From positions 496,001 through 560,000 of the forward strand of contig JAGYIV010000010.1 of assembly GCA_018402345.1 (NCBI GenBank): a stretch of DNA of 64,000 nucleotides, written 5' to 3'. A model generated the notes under the pieces. That model was given only the letters and a program-made list of their open reading frames with translations. It was not told the DNA's origin and did not search any database. The number at the start of each line of letters is the position of its first letter. Positions within the stretch are counted from its first letter, which is position 1. Positions 51,448-64,000 of the stretch are shown here, piece after piece. Both the position numbers and the translations under genes were made by a program. This DNA comes from Terrimicrobiaceae bacterium. GTDB lineage: Bacteria > Verrucomicrobiota > Verrucomicrobiia > Chthoniobacterales > Terrimicrobiaceae.

Positions 51448-51515
51448 CCGAACAAGACGAGACACAGCAGCCCCTATTAGCCGTTCTGCTTGCATCCTTT
51501 CCCGAATGGCTGCGC

Positions 51516-51540
51516 GAGGGGTCAGGCATGAATTCTTGAT
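51516..51540 (+). repeat. Palindromic TA-island repeat, copy 1 (plus orientation)
   Basis: GAGGGGTCAGGCATGAATTC continues as TTGAT. It is the only clear copy in this orientation, and it lies 3' of a plus-strand gene, matching the orientation rule seen for minus-strand genes. The 1011 bases 51448-52458 hold only repeats and no convincing gene. Confidence 0.65.
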
Positions 51541-51858
51541 ATTCATCACTGATTTGTAACCAAGAAACTGGGTTAAAATGGGATAGAAACTCAATGAAGT
51601 CTATCTTACTCCCCTGAGATTCTGAACCCCCTTCACGACTTCAACGCGGTCATCCAGCAGGATTCTAAATGATATTGTCGCGCGGCGTAAATCCATCGAA
51701 GCGAGGCTGCATGCCAGCGAGCGCAACCTCATTGGCACCCTCGGCAGCAGCTCGAAATCAAGTTGAAGCCCTGAATCTCACTTATGGTAGGGCGCGGACC
51801 TCCCGCCCCACCGGATTGGCGTTCTTTCCTCTCAAACCCCAGATAGGATCAGACTCCT

Positions 51859-51898
51859 CAAACGCGCAGATATGTCAAAAATTAATCCTACCCCCTTA
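51859..51898 (-). repeat. Palindromic TA-island repeat, copy 2
   Basis: CAAACGCGCAGATATGTCAA leads into AAATTAATCCTACCCCC. The preceding agataggatca stretch also occurs at 56449, beside a different repeat. Confidence 0.6.
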
Positions 51899-51989
51899 TA
51901 ACGTTTCCAAGAAAGCGCGGCGGACTGGTTCAGGCTCCCAATAACTCTACCACCCATGTTATTTGCATCCATAACTTTGTCGGGTTATT

Positions 51990-52095
51990 ACACAAAAACA
52001 CGACCCTTTTCGAGGCTTCGAACTCGAAAGAAAAATGTTACGAAACGCAGAACTGACTCTTCACCCGTGCGGATATGTCAATAATTAATTTCTGT
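51990..52095 (-). repeat. Long form of the TA-island repeat, copy 3
   Basis: About 105 bases: an ACAAAAACACGA left part, the shared AACGCAGAACTGACTCTTCA block, and a palindromic TGTCAATAATTAATTT end. The same order is found at 63811-63918. Confidence 0.65.
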
Positions 52096-52131
52096 AACAT
52101 CTAACATAATACACTTTGCGAGCATTTAAAT

Positions 52132-52319
52132 GCGTCTATCGAAACCAAGTGGTAGGGATGGCTCGCCGAGCCGTCCGACTCTCGCAGCGGCTCGCCATGC
52201 CGGAGTCGCACCGCGCATAGGCTGGTTGCCGCCAAGCGCGAAGGGCCATTCTTCCAAAGCGCGGCCCTTCAGGTTTCAGAGATCAGAAATTCCTTATGAG
52301 CTCCGTAGGAGTTAAAAAT
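52132..52319. repeat. 188-bp direct repeat, left copy
   Basis: From GCGTCTATCGAAACCAAG to TAGGAGTTAAAAAT, nearly identical to 54696-54880. It contains the inverted repeat GGCTCGCCGAGCC and no gene. The right junction differs between copies: here it continues as tcaagctttcatgtcgg, in the other copy as the palindromic repeat. Confidence 0.8.
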
Positions 52320-52320
52320 A

Positions 52321-52350
52321 TCAAGCTTTCATGTCGGCTGACCCCTCAAG
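52321..52350 (-). repeat. Variant TA-island repeat (AAGCTTTCATGTCGG type), copy A
   Basis: The segment TCAAGCTTTCATGTCGGCTG followed by ACCCCTCAA recurs exactly at 56457-56485. The ACCCCTCAA end is shared with the palindromic family. Confidence 0.65.
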
Positions 52351-52423
52351 CGATACAATACCGCACCACATCCCGCGAGTCGTCGGATTCATCTGCCATC
52401 ATGATCGTTACGGAATCGCCAGT

Positions 52424-52463
52424 CAACATGCGAATGTGAGGGCTTCTTTTACGCCGCGCTACA
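52424..52463. repeat. Short dispersed repeat shared with the window end
   Basis: ACATGCGAATGTGAGGGCTT, then CTTTTACGCCGCGCTACA; the last 38 bases of the window carry the same sequence with four or five differences. It overlaps the stop of the vapC-like gene. Confidence 0.6.
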
Positions 52464-52857
52464 AGCTTTCGGTCTTAAGCAACGACTTAGGAATGGATTC
52501 AAAATGCTGATCCCGATGGAGCAGTGTTGCTTTTTTCAGGCAAGCCACTGCAGCAATGAGCGAGTCCACCAGGGGAATTCGCTTGGCAGCTTGCTGAGTC
52601 AAAGAAAGAGCTTTCATTGCAATTTCCTCATCGATTGATACGACGCCATTAAGTAGATGCTTGTAATCCGCCAATATTCTTTGGATTTCTTCTGGACTCG
52701 CTCCGAGTTCGAGCATGCGCCTTCCGAACTCCGTCAGTGTAACACTAGCTATAAGCAACTCTAGATTGGCATCCTCAAATAGAGATTGCACGCCATCTGC
52801 GCCCTCCTCATCGCGGTGGTGTGCCAACAGTGCGGAAGTGTCCAATACAACTGTCAT
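52459..52857 (-). CDS. vapC: PIN-domain toxin, VapC-like
   Basis: A 132-residue PIN ribonuclease. The acidic residues are visible in VVLDTSALLAHH (D6), TLTEFGRRM (E43 region) and PLVDSLIAAVA, with the final LHRDQHFESI motif. It should cut tRNA or rRNA when free of its antitoxin. Its start overlaps the stop of the AbrB-type antitoxin gene by 4 bases. Confidence 0.88.
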   Translation of the reverse strand: MTVVLDTSALLAHHRDEEGADGVQSLFEDANLELLIASVTLTEFGRRMLELGASPEEIQRILADYKHLLNGVVSIDEEIAMKALSLTQQAAKRIPLVDSLIAAVACLKKATLLHRDQHFESIPKSLLKTESL

Positions 52858-53099
52858 ACCGTTTCCTCGGAGCGTTCTTGGAGCAGCTCATGCACCGAAT
52901 CCCTCAACGGCGAATAGGATTTGCCAGCTCCTTTCAGACGGCGCGATAGTTCTTTACGGTCTGGAATGACGCGAATCGCAATTTCATCAGGCCTTCCCGT
53001 ATCAAACCAGTCAAAAGAAAAACCTGGCTTTACTCCAAATTTCCTTGCAATTTCCATTGGTATGGTGATCATGTTTTTCGAGGTAACGGTGGTTGTCAT
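52854..53099 (-). CDS. vapB: AbrB/SpoVT-type antitoxin, VapB-like
   Basis: An 81-residue protein with a swapped-hairpin AbrB DNA-binding domain (VTSKNMITIPMEIARKFGVKPG) and a C-terminal toxin-binding tail. It would bind its own promoter and the PIN toxin encoded next. Its order before the toxin is the common one. Confidence 0.85.
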   Translation of the reverse strand: MTTTVTSKNMITIPMEIARKFGVKPGFSFDWFDTGRPDEIAIRVIPDRKELSRRLKGAGKSYSPLRDSVHELLQERSEETV

Positions 53100-53239
53100 G
53101 GAAAAAAAATAATAGAATGAATTTCTAAAACAAGCTAAATTTTTTCGACAGCCGCGTAGACGCCTTCCGCCAGTTTGCCCGTGGAGGCTTTTTTGGCTAC
53201 TCCACAGGGCTCAGCCCTCGGCTCCGAAAGAGCCTATTA

Positions 53240-53266
53240 TGTCAAGAATTAATTCCCGACCCCTTC
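53240..53266 (-). repeat. Palindromic TA-island repeat, copy 4
   Basis: TGTCAAGAATTAATTCCCGA then CCCCTTC, 22 bases beyond the hicA stop and reading in the hicA direction as GGGG..GAATTAATTC..TGACA. Confidence 0.75.
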
Positions 53267-53287
53267 AAATTCGATGAATCTCTAAAA

Positions 53288-53467
53288 CTACTCAGCTTCA
53301 AGTCTTTTTAGGATTTTTTCGGCAAGAGGTTCTTTGATCTCATTGTGGCGTGGAACCGCTTCGGTAACTCCTTTTTTTGGGTTCAACCAGAGGGAATGAC
53401 TTCCCCCTTCACGCTTGAGGTAGCAACCCGCCACGCGAAGTTTTCGCTCCAAATCCCTTCGCTTCAT
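53288..53467 (-). CDS. hicA: HicA toxin
   Basis: A 59-residue mRNA interferase. MKRRDLERKLRVAGCYLKRE is followed by GGSHSLWLNP, whose His is the catalytic residue, then VPRHNEIKEPLAEKILKRL. The length and pattern fit HicA exactly. It is encoded after the antitoxin, the reverse of the more common hicA-hicB order, and the two genes overlap by 4 bases. Confidence 0.85.
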   Translation of the reverse strand: MKRRDLERKLRVAGCYLKREGGSHSLWLNPKKGVTEAVPRHNEIKEPLAEKILKRLEAE

Positions 53468-53709
53468 CCCACCAAGATTTTCTCTCGGATGGCATCTTCG
53501 GGCAAACCACGAAGGAAGTCCTCACGCCGGTCATCCAATATCAACTCAATCGCCTCAATCAGGTTGCGTTTTGTTTCTTCCATTGTCTCACCCTGCCCAT
53601 TGGCACCAGGAACCTCCGGGCAAACAGCCCAAAAACCACCTTCTGGAGCGGATTCAATAATGGCAGTAAATTCCGATTTCACAATAAAAAATTTAAACCC
53701 CACTCGCAA
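53464..53709 (-). CDS. hicB: HicB antitoxin
   Basis: An 81-residue partial RNase H-fold protein: FTAIIESAPEGGFWAVCPEVPGANGQGETMEETKRNLIEAIELIL is the HicB core. A GTG at 53679 (VKSEFTA) is an equally good start. It has no obvious separate DNA-binding domain, so it represents the short HicB form. Confidence 0.87.
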   Translation of the reverse strand: MRVGFKFFIVKSEFTAIIESAPEGGFWAVCPEVPGANGQGETMEETKRNLIEAIELILDDRREDFLRGLPEDAIREKILVG

Positions 53710-53880
53710 TTTGGCAAGGAAAGTTTTTGGCGAAAACTCGCCATAGCTAAAAAGCGGTCTCCCATGGCTGTCCCCTTAAACTCGCACAGATCCAATCCAC
53801 AAAATCTATTCAGCTATGTCGAGTTCCAATTCAAGCCGGGATTGGAATTTGTAGCGCCATAACCCACTACCCGCCTCTAA

Positions 53881-53908
53881 TGTCAAGAATTAATGCCTGA
53901 TCCCTCAA
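53881..53908 (-). repeat. Palindromic TA-island repeat, copy 5
   Basis: TGTCAAGAATTAATGCCTGA then TCCCTCAA; it ends two bases before the stop codon of the PIN gene at 53910. Confidence 0.75.
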
Positions 53909-53909
53909 A

Positions 53910-54308
53910 CTATTCTGTCACATTTCTAAACCATTTTTGAGGAAAGCCTGTGAAGTTTTTTAAAACCTTGTCTGTGTGAATGAGCGTGAGTCCTTTTTCT
54001 TTGGCAATCGCTGCCAATGTGCGATCCACCAAATCGCCATGGTCCCAATCCCACAACCCGGCAGTCATTGCAACCGCGGAATCAGGCATTTCAATCACAA
54101 AGTTTTGCAGTGAATGGGCAACCCATTTTTGAGGATCAGGTATTCCAGGCAATCGCCCCCTCTGCCACTTGAAACAAATTTCCGAGACACTCAAAGGGCA
54201 GATATAAAATTCGTCCACTTCGTCATTCAGAAAATCCCGCAAGGGTTGGCTCATCGGAAGACCGTGGTATCGGCGAAACCAAATGCCGGTATCAAGCAAC
54301 GCTTTCAT
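53910..54308 (-). CDS. PIN-domain toxin
   Basis: A 132-residue PIN nuclease of the type II TA class. KALLDTGIWFRRYHG gives the first Asp, YICPLSVSEICFKW the acidic Glu, and DLVDRTLAAIAKEKGLTLIHTDKVL the last acidic residues. Start chosen at MKALLDTG; the longer frame overlaps the antitoxin more. It overlaps that gene by 17 bases. Confidence 0.85.
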   Translation of the reverse strand: MKALLDTGIWFRRYHGLPMSQPLRDFLNDEVDEFYICPLSVSEICFKWQRGRLPGIPDPQKWVAHSLQNFVIEMPDSAVAMTAGLWDWDHGDLVDRTLAAIAKEKGLTLIHTDKVLKNFTGFPQKWFRNVTE

Positions 54309-54522
54309 TCGAGAGGGCATTAAATTCCGATTCATCGAGATCCACACCAGTCAACAAGTCCCAGGAAACAGGATTTGGAGAAACTGGCGGAACACCCTTC
54401 AGAACAGGCTTTAACAAGTGAAGGACAATCACATCACCAGTGGACATGACTTCCAAGGCATCTCCGGGCTTCACGGATTTTGGCAACACGACCCGACGCT
54501 TTTGATCGACAATGAGCTTCAT
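54292..54522 (-). CDS. AbrB-type antitoxin
   Basis: A 76-residue protein. KLIVDQKRRVVLPKSVKPGDALEVMSTGD is an AbrB/MazE-like DNA-binding hairpin, and the tail (DLLTGVDLDESEFNALSNE) is acidic, as expected for toxin binding. It is paired with the PIN toxin downstream. Confidence 0.8.
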   Translation of the reverse strand: MKLIVDQKRRVVLPKSVKPGDALEVMSTGDVIVLHLLKPVLKGVPPVSPNPVSWDLLTGVDLDESEFNALSNESVA

Positions 54523-54695
54523 GCGTGGGATCATCCCACATCCTGCCGGCCTGTCAATCATTTTTCGCGCAATGTGTCAAAATTTTTTCAAAATGCCGCC
54601 GGGCGCACCCCGTGCCCCCAGGCTTTCGTGTTTATTCATGTCTTTTGATTCGTTCGCTCCGCCTCATCTTACCCTTCAGGCCGCCTTCGGCAGCG

Positions 54696-54880
54696 GCGTC
54701 TATCGAAACCAAGTGGTAGGGATGGCTCGCCGAGCCGTCCGACTCTCGCAGCGGCTTGCCAAGCCGGAGTCGTGCAGCGCATAGGCTGGTGCCGCCAGCG
54801 CGAAGGGCCATTCTTCCAAAGCGCGGCCCTTCAGGTTTCAGAGATCAGAAATTCCTTCTGAGCTCCGTAGGAGTTAAAAA
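54696..54880. repeat. 188-bp direct repeat, right copy
   Basis: Near-identical to 52132-52319, with a few substitutions and small deletions. It occupies much of the 679-base gap 54523-55201, which otherwise contains one palindromic repeat and noncoding sequence of the IS110 element. Confidence 0.8.
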
Positions 54881-54900
54881 TGTCAAGAATTAATACCTTC
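54881..54900 (-). repeat. Palindromic TA-island repeat, copy 6 (half)
   Basis: TGTCAAGAATTAATACC follows the direct repeat without a gap; the GACCCC side is missing or altered. Confidence 0.55.
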
Positions 54901-54979
54901 TCTTCTCTGAAAAAGCAGTGTCAAGAGGGTATTTTGTTAGTCGCTTGTAGTCATTATACTGCGAAAGACGCACGAGATT

Positions 54980-56450
54980 TCTGAAGGTGTTTCGCGGGGG
55001 AGTTTCAGGCATGGATCGAGGGTATCCGCGTTGGCTGAAAAATTGCCGCCAGAGCGGATTTGCATGCATCGCTCCCTCGTCAGCTTTGGAGATTCGAGAT
55101 CAAACTTCTCTGCGGGGCGGGCCTATTTCATCCCCCTTCCAAATCGACAATCAGATCCCCGGCCCTCCAGTCTGACCCAAGGTGCGCCGTCCGGGGCCTT
55201 TTCAGACCTCGGCGACCATCCAGTCCTTAATGGGAGCGGCCGGGGAAAGTGGTGTGCTGATTGCCGCAGTCTCCAAACCTTTGACCGAAACCGGCGAACC
55301 CTTGCGGGCTCCGCCGGTTTGGTCTTTGGGTTTTTGGGACGGCGGAAGGGTTTCAAAAGTGCGTTGCTCGGTCAAGAGTTGCCAGGTGATGCGGGCCATG
55401 CGCCGGGCGGTGGAAAGGATGGCGGTGTTGGCTTTTTTGCCCAGTGCGCGTTTGCGTTTGTAGTGGTCGCCGAAGTAGGGGGAGCATCCGACGGACACCC
55501 AAGCGGCTTCGACAAAGGCCCAGCGCAGCCATTTGTTGCAGCGGCTCATCAGGCGGCCTTGGTGGGTCTTGCCTCCGCTACTGGAAGTCGAGGGGCAAAG
55601 GCCGGCGTAGCCGCAGAGTTTTTGCGCGCTTCCAAAACGCTTGATGGAGTCGATTTCACTCACCACCACAGCGGCAAGAATCGGGCCCATGCCCGGGATG
55701 CTTTGCACGAAGGTGAGTTCAGGCGAGTCTTCGTGCATCGTTTTAAGGGCGGCTTCGTCTTCGGCGATGCGGGTTTGGAGGTTGCGCAACATGTCGAGTT
55801 GCTGCTTGAGCAGGAGACCGGCGGGTGCGGGAAGATCGAGCTTGTCGAGGAAGCCCAGACCGCGCTTGCCGAAGAGGTCGCTGCATTGAGGGAGTTGCAG
55901 GTTGTGCTGGGCACCGAGGAGGCGGTGGATGCGGTTGCGGACTCTGGTGCGTTGCCGCACGAAGAAGGAGCGCTGGCGCAAGACCTCTTTGCGCTGCCTG
56001 GCGGCTTTGGAGGGGATGTGAACTTCGCAGATCATTCCAGCGCGCAAAAGCCGGGCGAGGATGTGGGCATCGACTTTATCGTTTTTGACTTGGGACTCGG
56101 CGATGATGCGCGTCTTGAAGGCATCGGCTAAGATGATGTCTTTATGCGCAAGATGAGGCTCAAGGAGTTCGTAGAGCCAAGCCCAGTTCATGGTGGTCTC
56201 GAAAACCACACGGCAGCCGGGATGTCGCTTGATCAGGTGAATGAAGAGCTCTGGTGTGCTGTGGTCGATGCGCCCTTTTTCAAGGACGCAGTCGGTGGAA
56301 TCAATCGCGCAAAAAACGCTGTATCGCTTATGGAAGTCGATTCCGATAGAGATTGCGTTGTTGTGGGATGGAGTTGCTGGTTTCATAGGCCAACCATCCT
56401 ACAACATCCATTTTATCTACTTCCAGAGCACGATCCGCCCGCCGAGCCAG
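54980..56450 (-). mobile_element. IS110-family insertion sequence (ends approximate)
   Basis: An intact IS110 transposase gene with noncoding flanks, within the TA island. IS110 elements have no long inverted repeats or target duplication, so the ends cannot be fixed by eye; I placed them in the flanking noncoding sequence on either side. Confidence 0.6.
55202..56386 (-). CDS. IS110-family DEDD transposase
   Basis: A 394-residue site-specific recombinase. The N-terminal RuvC-like domain begins with ISIGIDFHKRYSVFC and includes FKTRIIAESQVKNDKVDAHILARLL, carrying the acidic DEDD residues. The C-terminal Transposase_20 domain has IPGMGPILAAVVVSEI and FGSAQKLCGYAGLCPSTSSSGGK with the catalytic serine region. 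The gene is complete and uninterrupted. The noncoding ends of such elements may carry a bridge RNA; I did not identify it. Confidence 0.93.
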   Translation of the reverse strand: MKPATPSHNNAISIGIDFHKRYSVFCAIDSTDCVLEKGRIDHSTPELFIHLIKRHPGCRVVFETTMNWAWLYELLEPHLAHKDIILADAFKTRIIAESQVKNDKVDAHILARLLRAGMICEVHIPSKAARQRKEVLRQRSFFVRQRTRVRNRIHRLLGAQHNLQLPQCSDLFGKRGLGFLDKLDLPAPAGLLLKQQLDMLRNLQTRIAEDEAALKTMHEDSPELTFVQSIPGMGPILAAVVVSEIDSIKRFGSAQKLCGYAGLCPSTSSSGGKTHQGRLMSRCNKWLRWAFVEAAWVSVGCSPYFGDHYKRKRALGKKANTAILSTARRMARITWQLLTEQRTFETLPPSQKPKDQTGGARKGSPVSVKGLETAAISTPLSPAAPIKDWMVAEV

Positions 56451-56456
56451 ATAGGA

Positions 56457-56485
56457 TCAAGCTTTCATGTCGGCTGACCCCTCAA
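56457..56485 (-). repeat. Variant TA-island repeat (AAGCTTTCATGTCGG type), copy B
   Basis: Exact match to 52321-52349. It lies 37 bases beyond the stop of the PIN gene at 56522, the same relative position as the palindromic repeats. Confidence 0.65.
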
Positions 56486-56521
56486 ACCCTCACTTATAAA
56501 GAATGACTCACCAATTTTCCG

Positions 56522-56932
56522 TCAAGGTTCAACGACACTCAGTTTGGGAAATAGCTTTTGAAAATCTTTCGCATTCCGTGTAAGTAAACCCTCGAAGCGC
56601 AAAGCAAAAGAGCCAATCAAAACATCTGCGACAGGTCTCTTTAGTCCACCGCCTGTTCTTCGCTTGAGAATGTGTGTAGCCCATGCATCCGCCGCATTTT
56701 CAGTATCCACCACATCCCAAATCTCCTCAAAATCTATCCCCAAGCCTGTCAGGAAATTTTTCAGCGCAGCCATATCACCACCAAAGGCCGGAGCCAGTTC
56801 CACAAAAGTAACAGGGCTTATGACCACTCCCGAGGAAGACATTTGCAGAACCAGATTCTCGGACCTCTCCGCAAACTCAGGATCATCCAACCCGATGTCC
56901 AGCAATAGGCAGGTATCAACAACCCAAGCCAT
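56522..56932 (-). CDS. vapC: PIN-domain toxin, VapC-like
   Basis: A 136-residue PIN nuclease: AWVVDTCLLLDIGL (first Asp), SPVTFVELAPAFGG (Glu), RPVADVLIGSFALRFEGLLTRNAKDF (Asp and the terminal NAKDF motif). It directly abuts the upstream AbrB-type antitoxin gene with no spacer. Confidence 0.87.
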   Translation of the reverse strand: MAWVVDTCLLLDIGLDDPEFAERSENLVLQMSSSGVVISPVTFVELAPAFGGDMAALKNFLTGLGIDFEEIWDVVDTENAADAWATHILKRRTGGGLKRPVADVLIGSFALRFEGLLTRNAKDFQKLFPKLSVVEP

Positions 56933-57190
56933 TTAGGATCCTTCCCCCTCGCGCAGAACTCGCATCCAATCTGCCGTCGTGCCAAGTTCTCCAGATAAGT
57001 AATTTTTCATTGCCCCCCTCATCGCCCCCTTTTGCTTGGGCTTACGCTCCCCTACAAGTAATCTTATCTCGCTTTCCGAAATGTATTTCCATATAATTTT
57101 ACGACCAGGCAGCAGGCCCATTTTTTTCCGAATAAAAGAGGGCATGGAAACCTGCCCTCTCTCCGTTAATTTTGTAACCGCTTCTTTCAT
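56933..57190 (-). CDS. vapB: AbrB-type antitoxin
   Basis: An 85-residue protein with AbrB-like VTKLTERGQVSMPSFIRKKMGLLPGRKI and a C-terminal part rich in Lys and Gly. It is paired with the adjoining PIN toxin. A spacer of 266 bases with one long repeat separates it from the next TA pair. Confidence 0.8.
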   Translation of the reverse strand: MKEAVTKLTERGQVSMPSFIRKKMGLLPGRKIIWKYISESEIRLLVGERKPKQKGAMRGAMKNYLSGELGTTADWMRVLREGEGS

Positions 57191-57378
57191 TTTTTTAGAA
57201 TATCATGCCGTTCCATCATGTCAACGGTATTTTTTAAATCGATCCGGAGCAGGCCTGTGGACAACTGGCAAGGTTAAAAATCGAAAATTGTTATGAAACG
57301 CGGGGCATTCCCTTTTTATTGAGTTTGTAACTTCAAAAGGTTGAAATACCTTCAAAATTCCAGATTCAGGCAGAACCA

Positions 57379-57459
57379 AAATATGTCGATATGTGGGACC
57401 GGTATCTGACCCCTTTGACACCGCCGCCTCCCGTGTCACGATTTATGCCTAACCCTTCA
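57379..57459 (-). repeat. TA-island repeat: GTGGGACC-type block plus diverged palindrome
   Basis: AATATGTCGATATGTGGGAC at 57380, then TGACCCCTTTGACA, then a diverged palindrome TGTCACGATTTATGCC with ACCCTTCA. The final TCA (57457-57459) is the TGA stop codon of the RelE-like gene, so the repeat supplies the end of the gene. Confidence 0.65.
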
Positions 57460-57807
57460 GCGCCTTTTCAGAGCTCTGCGGATATCGTCATGAATGCCGA
57501 CTTCAAAGAATACCAGTTCGTGTTGAGGCTTTTCGACACGGAAGAGCAACCTGAGGCGAAGCCCGGCCCGGCACTCAAAGAGATCGGCCCCAAGTTTCCG
57601 GATTCCCGATCCTCGATGTGCGTGCGGTTTGCCCCATGCTTCTATCACAGACACCAAGGCCTCGTTCACATCCGCACGATCCTCTGCGGGAAGCATGCGA
57701 AGCTCGCCGAGAAAACGCTCAGTGAGCTGAATCCGCCAAGAGGTCTTCGAGGTTTCCGGTGAAGGTTTTGAGCGATCCGGCGCGGCGGTTTTGTTGGATT
57801 TCCTCAT
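57457..57807 (-). CDS. RelE/ParE-like toxin
   Basis: A 116-residue protein whose conserved part begins at WRIQLTERFLGELRML and includes RGSGIRKLGADLFECRAGLRLRLLFRVE, the RelE core with positive residues. The N-terminal 25 residues are low-complexity and overlap the antitoxin gene; no later start is available in frame. It probably forms a pair with the Phd-like gene upstream. Confidence 0.72.
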   Translation of the reverse strand: MRKSNKTAAPDRSKPSPETSKTSWRIQLTERFLGELRMLPAEDRADVNEALVSVIEAWGKPHAHRGSGIRKLGADLFECRAGLRLRLLFRVEKPQHELVFFEVGIHDDIRRALKRR

Positions 57808-58006
57808 GGGCTTGGACTGAAAGACGACCCACCTCGGCCTCGGTGGCTCCATACTCCCGCAAAGCGTAATCGGTGGATTCCACAGTGACGGGACGCAAGG
57901 CGATAATCTGATCCCCGTAAAGAATGCCAACATCCTCGCCGCACGCTGCAGCTTTGAGCCAAAATGTCAGATTTGTTCGGGCTTTGGTGGGACTGAGAGT
58001 TTGCAT
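57719..58006 (-). CDS. Phd/YefM-like antitoxin
   Basis: A 95-residue protein. QTLSPTKARTNLTFWLKAAACGEDVGILYGDQIIALRPV is the Phd/YefM N-terminal DNA-binding pattern; the tail is acidic and helical. It overlaps the toxin gene by 89 bases. The 171 bases before it show no gene. Confidence 0.75.
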   Translation of the reverse strand: MQTLSPTKARTNLTFWLKAAACGEDVGILYGDQIIALRPVTVESTDYALREYGATEAEVGRLSVQAHEEIQQNRRAGSLKTFTGNLEDLLADSAH

Positions 58007-58177
58007 CAGCGAAAAATGCGACTTTACCGCGTCGCTGTCAAGCCGCCATAGTGTTTTTATTTGAAATCACCAGCCTCACCTGTGCCCAGCATCCCCTCGC
58101 CCCCTTCTCGGCAAAATCATTTTGTTCTGGAAATGTGTAGCGGCGGTCTATGACCGCCGGGTCGGTTCGTCATCAGC

Positions 58178-58441
58178 CTATCCAAACAAATTGTCGAAAT
58201 CATTATGCGAACCAACCCAAAACCAATGAATCTCTTCACCATTCCTTCGACCGACGGCCCGATATTTTGCTGAAATCCTTACAGACCAGATATCTTTTGT
58301 TCCGGCTAACTTCTTAAAACGCAAAGAAGGATGATCTGGAGAAGACTCAAAGAGTTTGTATGCCTGTTTGGCATCTTTGCGCACTACGGAGTCTAAATCA
58401 TTATAGGCGCGCCAAAAGCTTGGTCTCGCAAAAGACTTCAC
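58178..58441 (-). CDS. RelE/ParE-family toxin
   Basis: An 87-residue protein: FARPSFWRAYNDLDSVVRKDAKQAYKLFESSPDHPSLRFKKL, then WSVRISAKYRAVGRR and WFWVGSHNDFDNLF, the typical HigB/RelE-like C-terminus. It overlaps the upstream antitoxin gene by 4 bases. Confidence 0.87.
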   Translation of the reverse strand: MKSFARPSFWRAYNDLDSVVRKDAKQAYKLFESSPDHPSLRFKKLAGTKDIWSVRISAKYRAVGRRNGEEIHWFWVGSHNDFDNLFG

Positions 58442-58656
58442 AATTTTTCAAAATCGAACTGCTCCGAACCCTCTTCTTCACATGCCCGAGCGAATGCCTC
58501 GAGCTTGATTCGAGGTTTGTCGGTATTAACTATTTTTTCCCATCGGTCATCCTCCGACCTCTCGAAGAGAAATCGCGCAAAATCAGCAACCTCAATTTGT
58601 TTCTCAACAGGCAATGCCTCAAAGATTTGAATGAATTCCAGAGTCTTTACACTCAT
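58438..58656 (-). CDS. DUF2281-like antitoxin
   Basis: A 72-residue acidic helical protein: EFIQIFEALPVEKQIEVADFARFLFERSE is typical of DUF2281/SMc-type antitoxins encoded with RelE-like toxins. The ATGA overlap with the toxin gene supports the pair. Confidence 0.78.
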   Translation of the reverse strand: MSVKTLEFIQIFEALPVEKQIEVADFARFLFERSEDDRWEKIVNTDKPRIKLEAFARACEEEGSEQFDFEKL

Positions 58657-58714
58657 AAACCAAACATATGACCCTTGATAAATTTTACAAACTTTATTTT
58701 TTCAGACCCTTTGC

Positions 58715-58747
58715 AAAATATGTCAATGTGTGAGACCGACCCCCACC
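58715..58747 (-). repeat. TA-island repeat, GTGAGACC-type block
   Basis: AAAATATGTCAATGTGTGAG, then ACCGACCCCC; related to the blocks at 57379 and 61441. Confidence 0.6.
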
Positions 58748-58805
58748 CACCCGCTACTCGCCACCAGTTACTCGCTACCCGCCACAGCTGCTCAGCCGCC
58801 TACTA

Positions 58806-58832
58806 TGTCAAGAATTAATTCCTGACCCCTTC
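58806..58832 (-). repeat. Palindromic TA-island repeat, copy 7
   Basis: TGTCAAGAATTAATTCCTGA then CCCCTTC, 20 bases beyond the BrnA stop. This is one of the best-preserved copies. CCACAGCTGCTCAG lies just before it, as at 61370 and 62750. Confidence 0.78.
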
Positions 58833-58852
58833 AACTCAAACATTTCCAGATT

Positions 58853-59128
58853 TTAACGGAACGAGCCCGTTAGAGATTTATGATTTTGATGCTCTTGCTG
58901 AATGCGCTCCGAAACCCAAAGTTTGATAAGCGACTGCCTGCTTAAGCCAACCAATTTGGACTGCAAGTCCAGCTTTTGAATGATCCACTCGGGAAAATCC
59001 ACATTCACGCGGCGCGACTCCAAGCCAGGACGATGTATGGAAGTCTCGTCGATGTAATGGGTGATATCCTCCCCATCGTCAAAGCGTTGTTCAAATTCCT
59101 GTGCTGTTATTGTAGATGGATTCTTCAT
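58853..59128 (-). CDS. brnA: BrnA antitoxin
   Basis: A 91-residue protein. The C-terminal ribbon-helix-helix (SRRVNVDFPEWIIQKLDLQSKLVGLSRQSLIKLWVSERI) follows a flexible toxin-binding N-terminus (MKNPSTITAQEFEQRFDDGEDI). This is the BrnA pattern. Its start overlaps the end of brnT by 38 bases. Confidence 0.88.
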   Translation of the reverse strand: MKNPSTITAQEFEQRFDDGEDITHYIDETSIHRPGLESRRVNVDFPEWIIQKLDLQSKLVGLSRQSLIKLWVSERIQQEHQNHKSLTGSFR

Positions 59129-59363
59129 TTTGTCTTGTTCGTCTTACAGAGATGATTAGCGTTCGGTCCTCTCTTTTCGTGAAAATGGCCGTCCAAAGCT
59201 TCCCGCCGAACTCCGCCACGAGACCGCTTCGGGGTTCATCCGAAAAGCGTGCCACAAACTCGACTCGCTTAGGGTCGATCCATAGGGCTTTCGCCTGCTC
59301 GAAATCCATCCCATGCTTCGCTTGATTGGAATCGCTTTTGGCTTTGTCATATTCAAACCCCAC
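59091..59363 (-). CDS. brnT: BrnT toxin
   Basis: A 90-residue RelE-fold ribonuclease: FEYDKAKSDSNQAKHGMDFEQAKALWID is diagnostic for BrnT, and RTLIISVRRTRQNE the C-terminal part. The order brnT then brnA is the usual one. Confidence 0.9.
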   Translation of the reverse strand: MGFEYDKAKSDSNQAKHGMDFEQAKALWIDPKRVEFVARFSDEPRSGLVAEFGGKLWTAIFTKREDRTLIISVRRTRQNEESIYNNSTGI

Positions 59364-59471
59364 TATGGTATATTACCTATACCTCTCAGGGCGTCAATGA
59401 GAATTTCTTGACGAACTAAGGCCTGCTTTTCAAAATTCAATATCGCGATGCTCGGGACTGAGGACTCTAGA

Positions 59472-59580
59472 AAATGCGACAAAACGCAGATCTGACTCTT
59501 CACACGCGCAGATATGTTAAGAATTAATTCCTGACCCCTCTGACGCAGATATGGCAAGAATTCAGTTGCTGACTCATCAG
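59472..59580 (-). repeat. Long TA-island repeat, copies 8 and 9 in tandem
   Basis: GCGACAAAACGCAGATCTGA begins a 70-base unit that ends in GAATTAATTCCTGACCCC; a second, shortened unit (GACGCAGATATGGCAAGAATTC) follows at once. Read on the minus strand the unit translates to ISARVKSQICVLSHF, as do the copies at 60355 and 62811. Confidence 0.7.
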
Positions 59581-59617
59581 AGACCTGCCCCCTCAGACTC
59601 AGACTTTGCCTGCTTTT

Positions 59618-59857
59618 TTAGGTTAACCGGTCTGTTTCTGCCGGCGTTTCATCCCCTGCGGCATCGAGAAATTTCAGATAGTCTTTGCGGCGACCTCTTG
59701 CAGCCTCACGGCGAAGGTGCTCCAGAGTTTGCCATGCAGCCATTTTCTCGCCCGCCGCGCTACTCACGAATTGGTTCACACTCATCCCCTCCGCTTTCGC
59801 AAGGCGGCGGATCGTTTTTAGGAGCGAATCAGGAAGCTTTATAGTCAGTGTGCTCAT
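59618..59857 (-). CDS. Ribbon-helix-helix antitoxin paired with a PIN toxin
   Basis: A 79-residue protein starting with STLTIKLPDSLLKTIRRLAKAEGMSVNQFVSSAAGEKMAAWQ, a typical RHH sequence, followed by an acidic tail. It follows the PIN gene with a 4-base overlap. It is a paralogue of the protein at 60618. Confidence 0.8.
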   Translation of the reverse strand: MSTLTIKLPDSLLKTIRRLAKAEGMSVNQFVSSAAGEKMAAWQTLEHLRREAARGRRKDYLKFLDAAGDETPAETDRLT

Positions 59858-60276
59858 GGTTTGTGAAAAATAAGCCGATAGAAATCGCCGGGAGTCATGG
59901 CCTGAATGCCAAGTTGGTCGCTGCCCGCGAAATCTCTCGTGTTGTGAGTGACAATGTAGCGCGCCCCGGCCGCAAAAGCCAACTCCAAAATAAAATCATC
60001 ATCGGGATCTTTTAAAAAGGGACGCCAGAGAAAATGCACATCCTGATGATGACAAATCGAGGCAAGGTAGCGCAAGAATGCCTGCGCATCCTCCAGAGTC
60101 TGTCTGGCCTGCAAATTCTCGGGGCGACAGAGCACTTCCTGCCATTCCGCATAAAGAGCCACAGACAAACAAGGCTCAATTCCATCGATCGGCAAAGAGC
60201 GCAAAATCCTGTTGCTGGCTCCCTCCAGAGAACGGGCTGCAGCCACCAAAACGCATGTGTCTAAAACAATCCGCAC
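59854..60276 (-). CDS. PIN-domain toxin (COG1569/PIN_3 type)
   Basis: A 140-residue nuclease: RIVLDTCVLVAAARS (Asp), LSVALYAEWQEVL (Glu), FLKDPDDDFILELAFAAGARYIVTHNTRDF (Asp cluster and end motif). The toxin gene comes before the RHH gene. Sequence and layout are closely repeated at 60826, which suggests a tandem duplication. Confidence 0.86.
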   Translation of the reverse strand: MRIVLDTCVLVAAARSLEGASNRILRSLPIDGIEPCLSVALYAEWQEVLCRPENLQARQTLEDAQAFLRYLASICHHQDVHFLWRPFLKDPDDDFILELAFAAGARYIVTHNTRDFAGSDQLGIQAMTPGDFYRLIFHKP

Positions 60277-60354
60277 AAGAGTTCTTTAAAAAGACCATCT
60301 CCTTTTTTACAAGCAAAAAAAAACGATTCCACATTGGGAAATGTATTGAGTCGG

Positions 60355-60428
60355 CCAAATATGTGAATGTGTAAAACTGACTCTTGACACGGGCAAATAT
60401 GTCAAGAATTAATTCCTGACCCCTCAAG
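60355..60428 (-). repeat. Long TA-island repeat, copy 10
   Basis: CAAATATGTGAATGTGTAAA, CTGACTCTTGACACGGGCAA and the palindrome TGTCAAGAATTAATTCCTGA are joined in one 74-base block. The 341-base gap 60277-60617 holds this and copy 11 but no gene. Confidence 0.7.
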
Positions 60429-60593
60429 CACCCCAAAGTTGCTTTCATGCTTACTTGTTTACCATCTTGCTGGCCAATGTCAACCCATCTTTCGAATCAT
60501 AAAAATTGGCACCGCCTCTCGCGCCCTTTTCACTACTCACAAAATTTCCTGTTGATTTGCTCTGATACTACTGACGCATCACAACGCCTCCCA

Positions 60594-60620
60594 TGTCAAG
60601 AATTCATGCCTGCCCCCTCA
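60594..60620 (-). repeat. Palindromic TA-island repeat, copy 11
   Basis: TGTCAAGAATTCATGCCTGC then CCCCTCA. The final TCA (60618-60620) is the TGA stop codon of the RHH antitoxin, so repeat and gene share bases. Confidence 0.75.
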
Positions 60621-60854
60621 AATCTCGTCTCCGGGAAGGGCCGGCACATCAGGCACATTAGCCAAGTAGTTGTCCCAATCCTGGCGACTGCCTTGGGATG
60701 CTTCTTTGCGTAAGTAGTCAAGCGACGACATGACCGCAAGCTTTTCTCCGGCCGCGATCGACAAAAACTGCTCAACCGAAAATCCATTTTGTTTGCCTAA
60801 AGTCTCGATCCCCTGTTTCACGCCGTCAGGGAGTTGAATGCTGATTGTGCTCAT
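60618..60854 (-). CDS. Ribbon-helix-helix antitoxin, paralogue of the one at 59618
   Basis: A 78-residue protein: STISIQLPDGVKQGIETLGKQNGFSVEQFLSIAAGEKLAVM, an RHH domain, and an acidic C-terminus. Its stop codon lies inside the adjoining palindromic repeat. It overlaps the PIN gene by 29 bases. Confidence 0.8.
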   Translation of the reverse strand: MSTISIQLPDGVKQGIETLGKQNGFSVEQFLSIAAGEKLAVMSSLDYLRKEASQGSRQDWDNYLANVPDVPALPGDEI

Positions 60855-61272
60855 GTATGGTTTCGAAGGATTTTAAGAAATTCCAGAGCGTAATTGCGGG
60901 AATACCAAGCTGCAGAGATCCCCTAAAATCGCCAATGTTGTGTGTGACAATGAAATCACAGTTCGCAGCGAACGCAAGTTCCAAAACCATGTCATCATCA
61001 GGATCAGGCAAAAAAGGTCGCCAGAGATAGTGAATGTCCTGCAGTCGCGCACAGGAAGCAAGCTGCCGCAAAAAGCCCAGCGTCGTGTCAATGCTGGTTT
61101 CTGGCGGAAGGTTCTGTGCCCTTGTCAGCACGGCCACCCATTCCATGTAAAGGGAAATGGAGAGGCAAACTTCAAAGCGCCGCAAGGGAATCATTTCAAT
61201 CAGGGCAAAGCTGGCGCCTCTTCGCGAACGAGCGGCTGCCACCATGACACTTGTATCCAAAACAACTCGCAC
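60826..61272 (-). CDS. PIN-domain toxin, paralogue of the one at 59854
   Basis: A 148-residue nuclease with RVVLDTSVMVAAARS, LSISLYMEWVAVL and FLPDPDDDMVLELAFAANCDFIVTHN, matching its neighbour segment by segment. The GTG at 61272 gives the same N-terminus as the paralogue; an ATG 15 bases earlier is possible. Confidence 0.85.
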   Translation of the reverse strand: MRVVLDTSVMVAAARSRRGASFALIEMIPLRRFEVCLSISLYMEWVAVLTRAQNLPPETSIDTTLGFLRQLASCARLQDIHYLWRPFLPDPDDDMVLELAFAANCDFIVTHNIGDFRGSLQLGIPAITLWNFLKSFETIHEHNQHSTP

Positions 61273-61397
61273 AAATTCAATACACAAAATTTATAGAGCT
61301 TTGTCGAGCTCAAATTCAAGCCAGAATTGGAATTTGTAGCGTCTGTGCGTAAACGCCCACTGTCAGCCACTCGCTACAGCTGCGTAGCAGCCTCAAA

Positions 61398-61426
61398 TGT
61401 CAATAATTAATTCCTGACCCCTTAAG
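61398..61426 (-). repeat. Palindromic TA-island repeat, copy 12
   Basis: TGTCAATAATTAATTCCTGA then CCCCTTAA, preceded by CTACAGCTGCGTAGCAGCCT. Confidence 0.72.
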
Positions 61427-61436
61427 CACAAAGAAG

Positions 61437-61940
61437 TTGCAAAATATGTCGATATGTGGGACCGACCCCTTTTACTACTTTCAGCGTTGGGGCATCGAGT
61501 TACACTTCCGCGAACTCAAAACCCTCCTCGGCATGGAGATCCTGCGTTGCCGTTCGCCACACATGACCACACGCGAACTTCTTATGCACTTCATCGCCTA
61601 CAATGTCATCCGCTACGTCATGCAATCAGCCTCCATCCGCCATAACAAACCACTGGCACGCATCAGCTTCAAAGGATCTCTTGACACCCTCCGCCACTGG
61701 GCGCCCCTTCTTGACGCCGCCCGTAAATCCCAACGCAAACAACGTGAACTCCTTCTTGAAATGCTTCGCATCATCGCTTCAGACCCGCTCCCGGAACGCC
61801 CCAATCGCTCCGAACCTCGAGCCAAAAAACGCAGATCTAAAAACTACCAACTCCTGACTAAACCCCGCAAATCCATAGGTCACCTCCCGAGAAGAAATCG
61901 CCCATCAAAAAAAACAAAAAACGTCCAAAACCGAGCTTAA
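61437..61940 (+). pseudogene. IS4-type transposase, C-terminal fragment
   Basis: After a few repeat-derived residues, the frame reads YYFQRWGIELHFRELKTLLGMEILR, the last catalytic block (Glu) of an IS4/IS1634-like transposase. It continues to a basic C-terminal tail. The first two thirds, with both catalytic Asp, are absent. The left break falls exactly at the GACCCC end of the repeat at 61441-61470. Confidence 0.75.
61441..61470 (-). repeat. TA-island repeat, GTGGGACC-type block
   Basis: AAAATATGTCGATATGTGGG then ACCGACCCCT; the transposase fragment begins at its end. Confidence 0.65.
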
Positions 61941-61945
61941 GTTAG

Positions 61946-61970
61946 CGCCATTCATGCCTGTCCCCTTACT
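61946..61970 (-). repeat. Palindromic TA-island repeat, copy 13 (partial)
   Basis: CGCCATTCATGCCTGTCCCC with TTACT keeps only the right half of the palindrome; it lies 5 bases after the transposase fragment stop. Confidence 0.5.
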
Positions 61971-62028
61971 AAGCCTTTATCATTTTTCAAGCTTGACAAT
62001 CATAAGTCGTAAAACATAATGTCTAATT

Positions 62029-62256
62029 ATGCGAATCACACTCTCCATACCTGACGCAGTGGCCCATCGGTTCCAAGCAGCCGTTCCACCTCGACAGCGC
62101 TCACGACATATTAGCCGACTCATTGAGACCAGTTTGGCAAGCCATGAGGCGGCTCTGGTCGCAGCCTGCCAGGCAGCCAATCAAGATAGCGATCTGGAGC
62201 GCGAGATTGATGAATGGCAGGCATTCCATGATGAAATCGCGGAGGAGGCACCGTGA
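62029..62256 (+). CDS. Antitoxin of a MazF-type module
   Basis: A 75-residue protein. RITLSIPDAVAHRFQAAVPPRQRSRHISRLIETSLASHEAAL resembles a ribbon-helix-helix domain, and the acidic tail (DLEREIDEWQAFHDEIAEEA) is the expected MazF-binding part. It overlaps the toxin gene by 4 bases. This is one of two TA pairs of the island on the plus strand. Confidence 0.82.
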   Translation: MRITLSIPDAVAHRFQAAVPPRQRSRHISRLIETSLASHEAALVAACQAANQDSDLEREIDEWQAFHDEIAEEAP

Positions 62257-62576
62257 ACCGAGGCGATATCTGGTGGGTGGCACTCGACCCTAGCCAAGGC
62301 GCGGAGATCAAGAAAACCCGGCCCTGCGTCGTTCTTACAAATCACATACTAAACCGTTTGCGTAAAACCGTTGTTGTTGTGCCCCTTTCCACAGCAGCCA
62401 AGCCACATCCCCCAATCACCATTCCCGTTAATTGCCAAGGGAGACCAGCTGTAGCCGTGATCGATCAGGTTCGAGCCGTCGCAAAACATCGGCTACAATC
62501 AAGAATAGAATCTCTGGATTCGAAGGATTTGAGTGCAATTGCACGAGCCCTGTCAACGATTCTCGAAATCCGATAA
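62253..62576 (+). CDS. mazF: MazF/PemK-family mRNA interferase toxin
   Basis: A 107-residue endoribonuclease: NRGDIWWVALDPSQGAEIKKTRPCVVLTNHILN gives the conserved loop with the catalytic Arg, and VVVPLSTA and AVIDQVRAVAKHRL follow. Length and motifs are complete. Confidence 0.92.
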   Translation: MNRGDIWWVALDPSQGAEIKKTRPCVVLTNHILNRLRKTVVVVPLSTAAKPHPPITIPVNCQGRPAVAVIDQVRAVAKHRLQSRIESLDSKDLSAIARALSTILEIR

Positions 62577-62774
62577 ATTCTATCTCCTAACTCCTGCGCG
62601 AAGCGCCTCCGACATCCGCTATCAGCCCTCGGCTGCGCATCATCCCAGTCCTCGGCAGCCATAGTCAGCCGCTGCAGCGCCAATGTCGCTTGGGCACACT
62701 TTCTCCGCAGCTATCTTCTATCTCCGATCTTCTATCTTCTGCGCCACCCGCCACAGCTGCGCAGTAGCCTATTA

Positions 62775-62801
62775 TGTCAAGACAGTTGCTGACCCCTTCA
62801 A
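62775..62801 (-). repeat. Palindromic TA-island repeat, copy 14 (variant core)
   Basis: TGTCAAGACAGTTGCTGACC then CCTTCAA: the outer arms are kept, but the GAATTAATTC core is replaced. CCACAGCTGCGCAG lies just before it. Confidence 0.62.
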
Positions 62802-62810
62802 CGAAAGAAA

Positions 62811-62877
62811 AATGGGACAAAACGCAGACCTGACTCTTCATACGCGCAGATATGTCAAGAATTTGCTGACCCCTCAA
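62811..62877 (-). repeat. Long TA-island repeat, copy 15
   Basis: GGGACAAAACGCAGACCTGA through TGTCAAGAATTTGCTGAC to CCCCTCAA. Its right edge is the exact break point of the IS3 orfA fragment. Confidence 0.7.
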
Positions 62878-63067
62878 ACTCTTGTGAATCGTTTTCTCTT
62901 CTTTCATGGCCTCAAGGGCCACCCGCGCCTTGAAGGCGCCATCGTGTCTTCTGCGTTTGGCTTTCATTTCTGTGGTTGGTTGTAGGTTTATTGACCTCTT
63001 CCAACCACCGCTTTTTATCTCTTAACCGCTGGTCCGATTTTCGGGTCCACCTCAGACTTTCCGGACA
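62875..63067 (-). mobile_element. IS3-family left-end remnant with truncated orfA
   Basis: The minus strand reads TGTCCGGAAAGTCTGAGGTG at 63067, a typical IS3-group terminal sequence, then about 100 bases of leader, then an ATG at 62967 that begins MKAKRRRHDGAFKARVALEA, the helix-turn-helix start of OrfA. After about 30 codons the frame runs into the island repeat. Everything downstream of the element (rest of orfA, orfB, right end) is gone. Confidence 0.72.
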
Positions 63068-63075
63068 GACTTTAA

Positions 63076-63345
63076 CTAATAGTGGTATCTTGCTTGAGCA
63101 AAAAGCACATGATTTCCTGCCACTCTGTAAACCAACCGATGCTCTTGGGTGATTCTCCGGGACCACACACCTTCACCCAAGTTCCGTAGCGGCTCCGGTT
63201 TTCCCAATCCATCAAAAGGATCGCGCCTAATGGCTTCGACCAGCTCAAGGACTTTGATAGCGGTCTTGCGGTTCGTAGAAACCCAAAAATGCAAATCCTC
63301 TAGGAAATCGCGATCGAAGACCAGTATGCGATCGGTAGAATTCAT
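63076..63345 (-). CDS. yoeB: Txe/YoeB-family toxin
   Basis: An 89-residue RelE-fold mRNA interferase. RILVFDRDFLEDLHFWVSTNRKTAIKVLELVEAIRRDPFDGLGKPEPLR and WSRRITQEHRLVYRV contain the catalytic Glu, Arg and His-Arg pattern, and the C-terminus ends in ARYHY, as in YoeB. It overlaps the antitoxin gene by 4 bases. The IS3 remnant ends 9 bases after the stop. Confidence 0.93.
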   Translation of the reverse strand: MNSTDRILVFDRDFLEDLHFWVSTNRKTAIKVLELVEAIRRDPFDGLGKPEPLRNLGEGVWSRRITQEHRLVYRVAGNHVLFAQARYHY

Positions 63346-63617
63346 CGCAACCCCGACCTCGCCGCCAACGCGTCGACCGATAAAAGCTCCCCCTCCCCGT
63401 TATCCAAACGCTTGAGTGCGGCGAGAAGACGCTCTGCATTTGCTGGGGATCTCAGAAGGTGCGCGGTTTCCTGGAGTCCCTCCCATTCATCCAAGGGAAG
63501 CATCACGATCGATTCTGTGCCACGCCGCGACACGACCACCGGCTCGCGCGTCGATACCGTTTTATCCCAGACTTCCGCCAAATGATCCCGCGCTGTAGAA
63601 TAGGTGATATTGCTCAT
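63342..63617 (-). CDS. yefM: YefM/Phd-family antitoxin
   Basis: A 91-residue protein: SNITYSTARDHLAEVWDKTVSTREPVVVSRRGTESIVMLPLDEWEGLQETAHLL is the YefM core, followed by an acidic toxin-binding helix. The ATG at 63617 gives the family's N-terminus. It represses its own operon in related systems. Confidence 0.92.
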   Translation of the reverse strand: MSNITYSTARDHLAEVWDKTVSTREPVVVSRRGTESIVMLPLDEWEGLQETAHLLRSPANAERLLAALKRLDNGEGELLSVDALAARSGLR

Positions 63618-63810
63618 AGGTCCACTCTTAAACCTGTTCAATGTTTCTGTCCAACTTAATTTTTAAGTTTTTTGTGAGAGTCAAATTGCCGAAAAAGCTG
63701 AAAAGTAGCGGGAGGCCAGGACCGCTGTGAGGGGTAGCTTCTCGCCTAAAATGAGAGAAAATCCACGCAGACCCCAGTTTTCCGACTCGAGCACCCCTCC
63801 CATAGGCACT

Positions 63811-63918
63811 TTACAAAAACACGATGATTTGTGAGGCTTCATACTCAAAAAATGTTACAAAACGCAGAACTGACTCTTCAAACACGCAGATATGTCAATA
63901 ATTAATTCCGACCCGTTT
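63811..63918 (-). repeat. Long TA-island repeat, copy 16
   Basis: Same order as 51990-52095: TTACAAAAACACGA, CGCAGAACTGACTCTTCA, TGTCAATAATTAATTCC, GACCCG. The 383 bases 63618-64000 contain this and the next repeat but no gene. Confidence 0.68.
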
Positions 63919-63961
63919 GATTTCAGCGGCGGATCCGCTTTAGCGGACCCTGGGCCCGGTC

Positions 63962-64000
63962 AAGATGCGAATGTGCGGGCTCCTTTTACGCCGTGCTACA
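63962..64000. repeat. Short dispersed repeat, cut by the window end
   Basis: AGATGCGAATGTGCGGGCTC then CTTTTACGCCGTGCTACA, matching 52424-52463. The full unit probably extends beyond the window. Confidence 0.58.

Follow-up and report, generated by a model that had tools for sequence, protein, structure and literature searches.

Two truncated transposase genes lie close together in a toxin-antitoxin region of a Terrimicrobiaceae genome, each broken beside a copy of the same short repeat. This arrangement raises the question of whether the repeat end is a place where foreign DNA is joined or deleted, as a reading of the sequence alone had proposed, or a passive spacer between genes. The window, here the whole stretch of 64,000 nucleotides that was analyzed (C4:496001-560000), lies on the 659-kb contig C4 of a 3.1-Mb genome in 17 contigs. 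Genomes that carry the repeat belong to the Verrucomicrobiota, the majority being named Spartobacteria.

The Toxin-Antitoxin Island

At about 51.5 kb of the window the GC content drops and a series of toxin-antitoxin pairs begins (Table 1), and the island so formed has repeats that continue to about C4:592 kb. Its content includes PIN/MazE, PIN, ParE-like, BrnT/BrnA-like, RHH/PIN_3, MazF, and YoeB/YefM genes, with an IS110 transposase among them. Gene orientation in the island is mixed, and 21 of the 22 repeats in the 124 kb of C4 examined (C4:496-620 kb) share a single orientation. The mazEF pair of the window has an 88% identical copy at C2:158972-159592.

Table 1. Features of the island and of the region around the two truncated transposase genes; coordinates are window positions unless a contig is named.
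Feature	Position	Strand	Evidence or remark
Lower-GC toxin-antitoxin island	C4:547-592 kb, ~45 kb; left part 51500..64000	.	Direct-orientation repeats; extends beyond the window
Solitary TIRYT-type terminal repeat TGTCAATAATTAATTCCTGACCCC, then TTAAGC	61398..61421	+	Right end of PIN toxin cassette; duplicated block 60585-61429 ends here
Second-type repeat TGTCGATATGTGGGACCGACCCC and hexamer TTTTAC	Repeat 61447-61469, hexamer 61470-61475	+	Outer edge coincides with IS4 break
3' third of IS4-family transposase gene with intact IS4 right end (ttaagttagcgccattc)	61476..61949	+	Pfam DDE_Tnp_1, NCBIfam IS4, relatives
Right half of the repeat apparently entered by IS4 (ATGCCTGTCCCC), left half lost	61950..61961	+	IS4 right ends in relatives; uninterrupted C2 counterpart
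mazE-like/mazF (PemK) toxin-antitoxin pair	62029..62576	+	PF02452, E=5.5e-27; weak MazE match, NF050104
Repeat variant TGTCAAGACAGTTGCTGACCCC	62775..62796	+	
Repeat variant TGTCAAGAATTTGCTGACCCC and hexamer TCAAAC	Repeat 62853-62873, hexamer 62874-62879	+	Outer edge coincides with IS3 break
5' end of IS3-family element (left IS end and orfA start), remainder missing	62880..63056	-	Relatives and genome copies
YoeB/YefM toxin-antitoxin pair	63076..63641	-	PF06769 and PF02604

Identity of the Repeats

The repeat consists of TGTCAAGAATTAATTCCTGACCCC followed by six degenerate bases, TYWRAC, and has a length of 30 nt when these outer bases are counted. In an alignment of 53 copies from the genus, information extends to +6 after the CCCC, with almost none from +7. 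Both in this genome and across the genus, inverted copies with the CCCC outward bound genes for Y1 (IS200-like, PF01797) transposases, examples being C2:408810-409916, C8:18168-19204, and L109. These repeats comprise several subfamilies, the inner sequence being particular to each, and the inverted pair at C8:18168-19204 is of the second repeat type (TGTCAATATGTGGGACTGACCCC). The first type folds into a hairpin on the GGGG strand (z -3.6), and the second gave no strong hairpin in the folding test.

The Y1 proteins are 317-352 aa long, with about 200 aa beyond the Y1 domain, where TnpA-Y1 subclass 2.1 has a long extension with an HTH-like domain; a Pfam search gave no HTH match in them. Their HUH and Y motifs are NHYH and YIHLNP in L043, L109, and L123, and NHFH and YVHLNP in L044 and L046; these forms, NH[YF]H and Y[IV]HLNP, agree with TnpA-Y1 subclass 2.1 (Table 1 of PMC6006769). 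This subclass contains most transposases of TIRYT (TIR-associated tyrosine transposase, or TIRtron) elements, has been suggested to be the TIRYT group, and is represented in roughly 15% of species sampled (PMC6006769). TIRYT elements carry GGGGWSAS terminal repeats (Di Nocera et al., 2013, PMC3733652). Here GGGGTCAG is found at both ends of L043, L044, L046, and L111, and L109 has GGGGTCGG, one base off. On these sequence features the window repeats are identified as solitary ends of TIRYT-type, IS200-like HUH/Y1 elements, with an outer edge, CCCC plus 6 nt, that is the boundary of the Y1 element. Since the repeat is a terminal repeat of such an element, an active part in rearrangement is reasonable.

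Two Transposase Genes Broken at the Outer Edge

The IS4 fragment covers positions 156-199 of the DDE_Tnp_1 profile and 284-332 of the 332 positions of the NCBIfam IS4 profile. Compared with ten full-length-type relatives, its homology begins at 61476, to within a codon, at the Y of the motif LYxxRW; the preceding residue is Leu in all ten and Tyr in the window, and the Pfam match begins one residue earlier, at 61473. The CCCC of the adjoining repeat ends at 61469 and is followed by TTTTAC, which places the IS4 start at about +7. The sequence-only reading had put this break directly after a repeat end at 61441. Adjacency to a repeat holds, and the position is corrected, 61441 lying just upstream of the repeat concerned. 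The IS3 fragment is 76-79% identical to four copies in the same genome and 92% and 90% identical to L086 and L096 of sister species. Its similarity to all of these starts at 62880, exact to the base, and most other relatives start likewise. Here the CCCC ends at 62873, followed by TCAAAC, and the start is at +7; orfA is broken beside the repeat as claimed, 6 nt past the CCCC rather than at 62877. Alignment to full-length relatives, expected to fix both breaks to the base, thus did so for IS3 and placed that of IS4 to within a codon, and both breaks do lie on the CCCC side, as had been noted. Since the IS3 start, the IS4 start, and the end of repeat conservation coincide, three measures agree on one edge.

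The remaining parts of both elements are missing: a genome-wide search found the 5' part of the IS4 nowhere in the assembly, and the 3' part of the IS3 is absent from C4:496-620 kb and the other stretches compared. The right end of the IS4 preserves an earlier step. In relatives, IS4 ends read ...GCCATTC, with nnnnCTGACCC(C) after them in nearly every case; where the left end is visible, similar sequence precedes it, a pattern that fits an approximately 11-nt target duplication inside a repeat. In the window, GCCATTC is followed by ATGCCTGTCCCC, the right half of TGTCAAGAATTCATGCCTGACCCC, which is intact beside the mazEF copy at C2:158964. Because the right end at 61949 lies inside that repeat and an intact counterpart exists, the IS4 most likely entered the mazEF repeat first; its 5' two-thirds would have gone later, leaving a new junction at another repeat. 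Insertion of IS4-type elements appears to be specific to TIRYT-type terminal repeats in several families of the order (61943-61961; L053-L070).

The hexamer beyond the CCCC is unlike in cassettes that are otherwise 98% identical (581260 vs. 591103), and it is therefore not simply part of a transferred unit. An origin as acceptor (target) DNA was considered, and the ISs seem not to supply it: the bases at its place in relatives differ, being TCGCAA or TTGCGA in IS3 relatives vs. TCAAAC in the window, and NNNCTY in IS4 relatives vs. TTTTAC. In eight of the 53 aligned copies the hexamer recurs exactly within the next 17 nt, vs. 0.7 expected (TTTTACGTTTTACCTTTTACC, TTAAACTTAAACTTAAAC). Some repeats are split internally, as CCT|GACCCC, and continue into unrelated DNA (C4:550898, 561153, 578753, and 581928), which may mark a second junction point.

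Recurrence at the Same Edge

With 24 edges in about 45 kb, roughly 0.5% of positions lie no more than 10 nt downstream of one, and two independent breaks would both fall there by chance with a probability of about 3e-5 (arithmetic). Two of the 24 (547889 and 548351) lack the terminal CCCC and are near-repeats, which changes the counts little. Further IS4 fragments are bounded alike in G011 (L070, where TCTGAC is followed by IS4 within 3 nt) and G090 (L066, at +6 to +8), and L068 is a degenerate version of such a fragment. The IS4 fragments L061, L063, L067, and L069 are not bounded by a repeat edge, and L064 is an IS4 with an internal deletion.

The sequence-only reading had proposed a search for other genes that end at the same edge, and one such case is a truncated nuclease-like gene at C4:257.7 kb. 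This gene, which is not part of an IS, is represented by its first 49 residues and stops 6-11 nt from the repeat at C4:257779. A homologue on a Pseudomonas plasmid runs past the break; this was the one relative found in plasmids, and searches of 197 related genomes, of phages, and of viral contigs gave none. The remainder of the gene was not found near its break, and there is no visible continuation across the element at C4:257779-257917. That short paired element, beside the truncated gene, consists of two inverted repeats without a gene.

The island also contains duplicated, self-similar blocks, and of their 32 right ends 14 fall at -6 to +10 of a CCCC, vs. 0.29 expected from rotation of the repeat positions (p 2e-4), and only two of 29 left ends fall in this interval; block ends come in pairs and are not independent, so that about half as many independent events are represented. 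The repeat edge as a recurrent break point is supported. The proposed involvement of the repeat in rearrangement is upheld to this extent, for IS fragments, a non-IS gene, and duplicated blocks alike, and the stronger proposal, that the element rather than RecA or ordinary deletion makes the junctions, goes beyond these results.

Proposed Mechanism and Alternatives

Cutting and joining at the element edge, or deletion anchored there, by a Y1 enzyme acting at solitary TIRYT-type ends is judged somewhat probable, the identity of the enzyme and the sequence of steps both being presumed. DNA beside a solitary end would repeatedly be cut off or replaced at the outer edge; the repeat would be retained together with all DNA on its TGTCAA side, and the CCCC side would receive a new, often truncated, neighbor. 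At this locus, a mazEF cassette carried by a repeat would have received a repeat-targeting IS4 in that repeat. The 5' two-thirds of the IS4 would then have gone in a join or deletion with its anchor at the outer edge of a different repeat (61469 plus 6), and an event of the same type anchored at 62873 plus 6 would have spared only the 5' end of the IS3. The likeliest agent would be a Y1 transposase that nicks the outer edge, the freed end being joined elsewhere on single-stranded DNA. The related TnpA-REP of E. coli nicks DNA, forms a covalent 5' linkage, and transfers the freed end to another 3'-OH (PMC8266576), and by analogy such nicking and transfer would yield flush junctions of this kind. 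Counting against a Y1 enzyme are the lack of a strong hairpin in the second repeat type, the variable hexamer, and the few junctions inside the repeat. Neither a donor/acceptor pair nor an empty site was recovered, and in an empty-site search at five repeat sites outside the island the relatives shared neighbor genes and not the intergenic stretch, so that no edge was resolved there.

Simple insertion without loss is unlikely: the other part of the IS4 is nowhere in the assembly, the remainders of the IS3 and the nuclease-like gene are not near their breaks, and insertion alone is therefore insufficient, loss or replacement of DNA having occurred with the repeat edge as one fixed end. A related possibility is ordinary transposition, in which whole elements were inserted into the IS4 and the IS3, whose other halves later disappeared through unrelated deletions. 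Complete TIR-Y1-TIR elements do exist, and their insertion would leave target DNA flush with the outer edge. This account is nevertheless quite unlikely, as it requires the same second event every time, the 5' part of the IS4 is absent from the whole assembly and the 3' part of the IS3 from C4:496-620 kb and the other stretches compared, the island has solitary ends, and the paired element at C4:257779-257917 is likewise flanked by a truncated gene, with no visible continuation of it across the element. RecA or short-homology recombination between dispersed repeats, which would shuffle cassettes with no role for an enzyme of the element and make the edges mere ends of homology, is a serious competitor as an explanation of the duplicated blocks. 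The repeats offer 24-67 bp of homology in direct orientation, and some blocks bear a repeat at both ends, as crossovers predict (60585-61429 and C4:589183-590027, 98% identical). It fails, however, for the truncated genes, because the partner site lies inside genes that, judging from relatives, have no repeat, and the start of the IS4, IS3, and nuclease-like fragments just past the edge is left unexplained. The bias of block ends toward the CCCC side also argues against it, with the reservation that these ends are not independent events, and recombination is on the whole an unlikely explanation.

The abundance of toxin-antitoxin cassettes with direct-orientation boundary repeats resembles a chromosomal integron array, with attC-type sites and an integron integrase. 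This resemblance is largely refuted as an explanation and has next to no likelihood: GTTRRRY is absent from the junction in the 53-copy consensus, flanks included, the integrase search gave no match above the curated cut-off and only sub-threshold pieces, the repeats are ends of Y1 elements, and gene orientation is mixed. An assembly chimera at a repeat is very improbable. Contigs of other draft genomes do tend to end near such repeats, but the window lies in a long contig, and like junctions arise independently in the assemblies of L070 and L066. A broader possibility, doubtful at present, is that the toxin-antitoxin array is built and reshuffled in an integron-like manner at solitary TIRYT ends, each of them a one-ended, strand-specific site of joining, with the Y1 enzyme replacing a tyrosine recombinase.

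Relation to Known Systems

The elements resemble TIRYT/TIRtrons in having a Y1 HUH gene between inverted repeats that start with GGGGWSAS (here GGGGTCAG) and further TIR copies, both solitary and dimeric, at other places in the genome. Toxin-antitoxin arrays, truncation of genes at the outer edge, and a degenerate outside hexamer do not figure in the portion of the description in PMC3733652 used here. REP/REPIN sequences with their RAYT (TnpA-REP) proteins are similar in that dispersed repeats accompany a Y1 transposase and in the hairpin of the first repeat type on the GGGG strand. They differ in their GTAG/GTGG (GT[AG]G) tag, which is absent from the 53-copy alignment, the tag here being GGGG; here, moreover, copies are few and in direct orientation in the island, and the second type is without a strong hairpin. 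The IS4, entering dispersed terminal repeats with an approximately 11-nt target duplication, recalls REP-targeting ISs (PMC1525189; ISPpu9, PMC8450116), but its target is a TIRYT end, and the IS was subsequently truncated from the edge of a different repeat. Chromosomal integron arrays likewise have boundary repeats in direct orientation and numerous toxin-antitoxin genes; they differ from the island, which has no GTTRRRY attC-type site in the consensus, no integrase above cut-off, and mixed gene orientation.

If flanking DNA is joined at a fixed offset from the terminal repeats, the TIRYT-type family would gain a testable role, and a non-integron route would exist by which toxin-antitoxin pairs and other small selfish genes are gathered into islands. 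Even with recombination as the agent, the exact edge would provide a simple marker for such junctions elsewhere. At C2:864796-865592, pieces resembling an integron-type integrase lie in different frames and score under the curated cut-off. Read on the island's minus strand, the inner end of the repeats is TTGACA, a -35-like, inward-pointing sequence that could drive neighboring operons.
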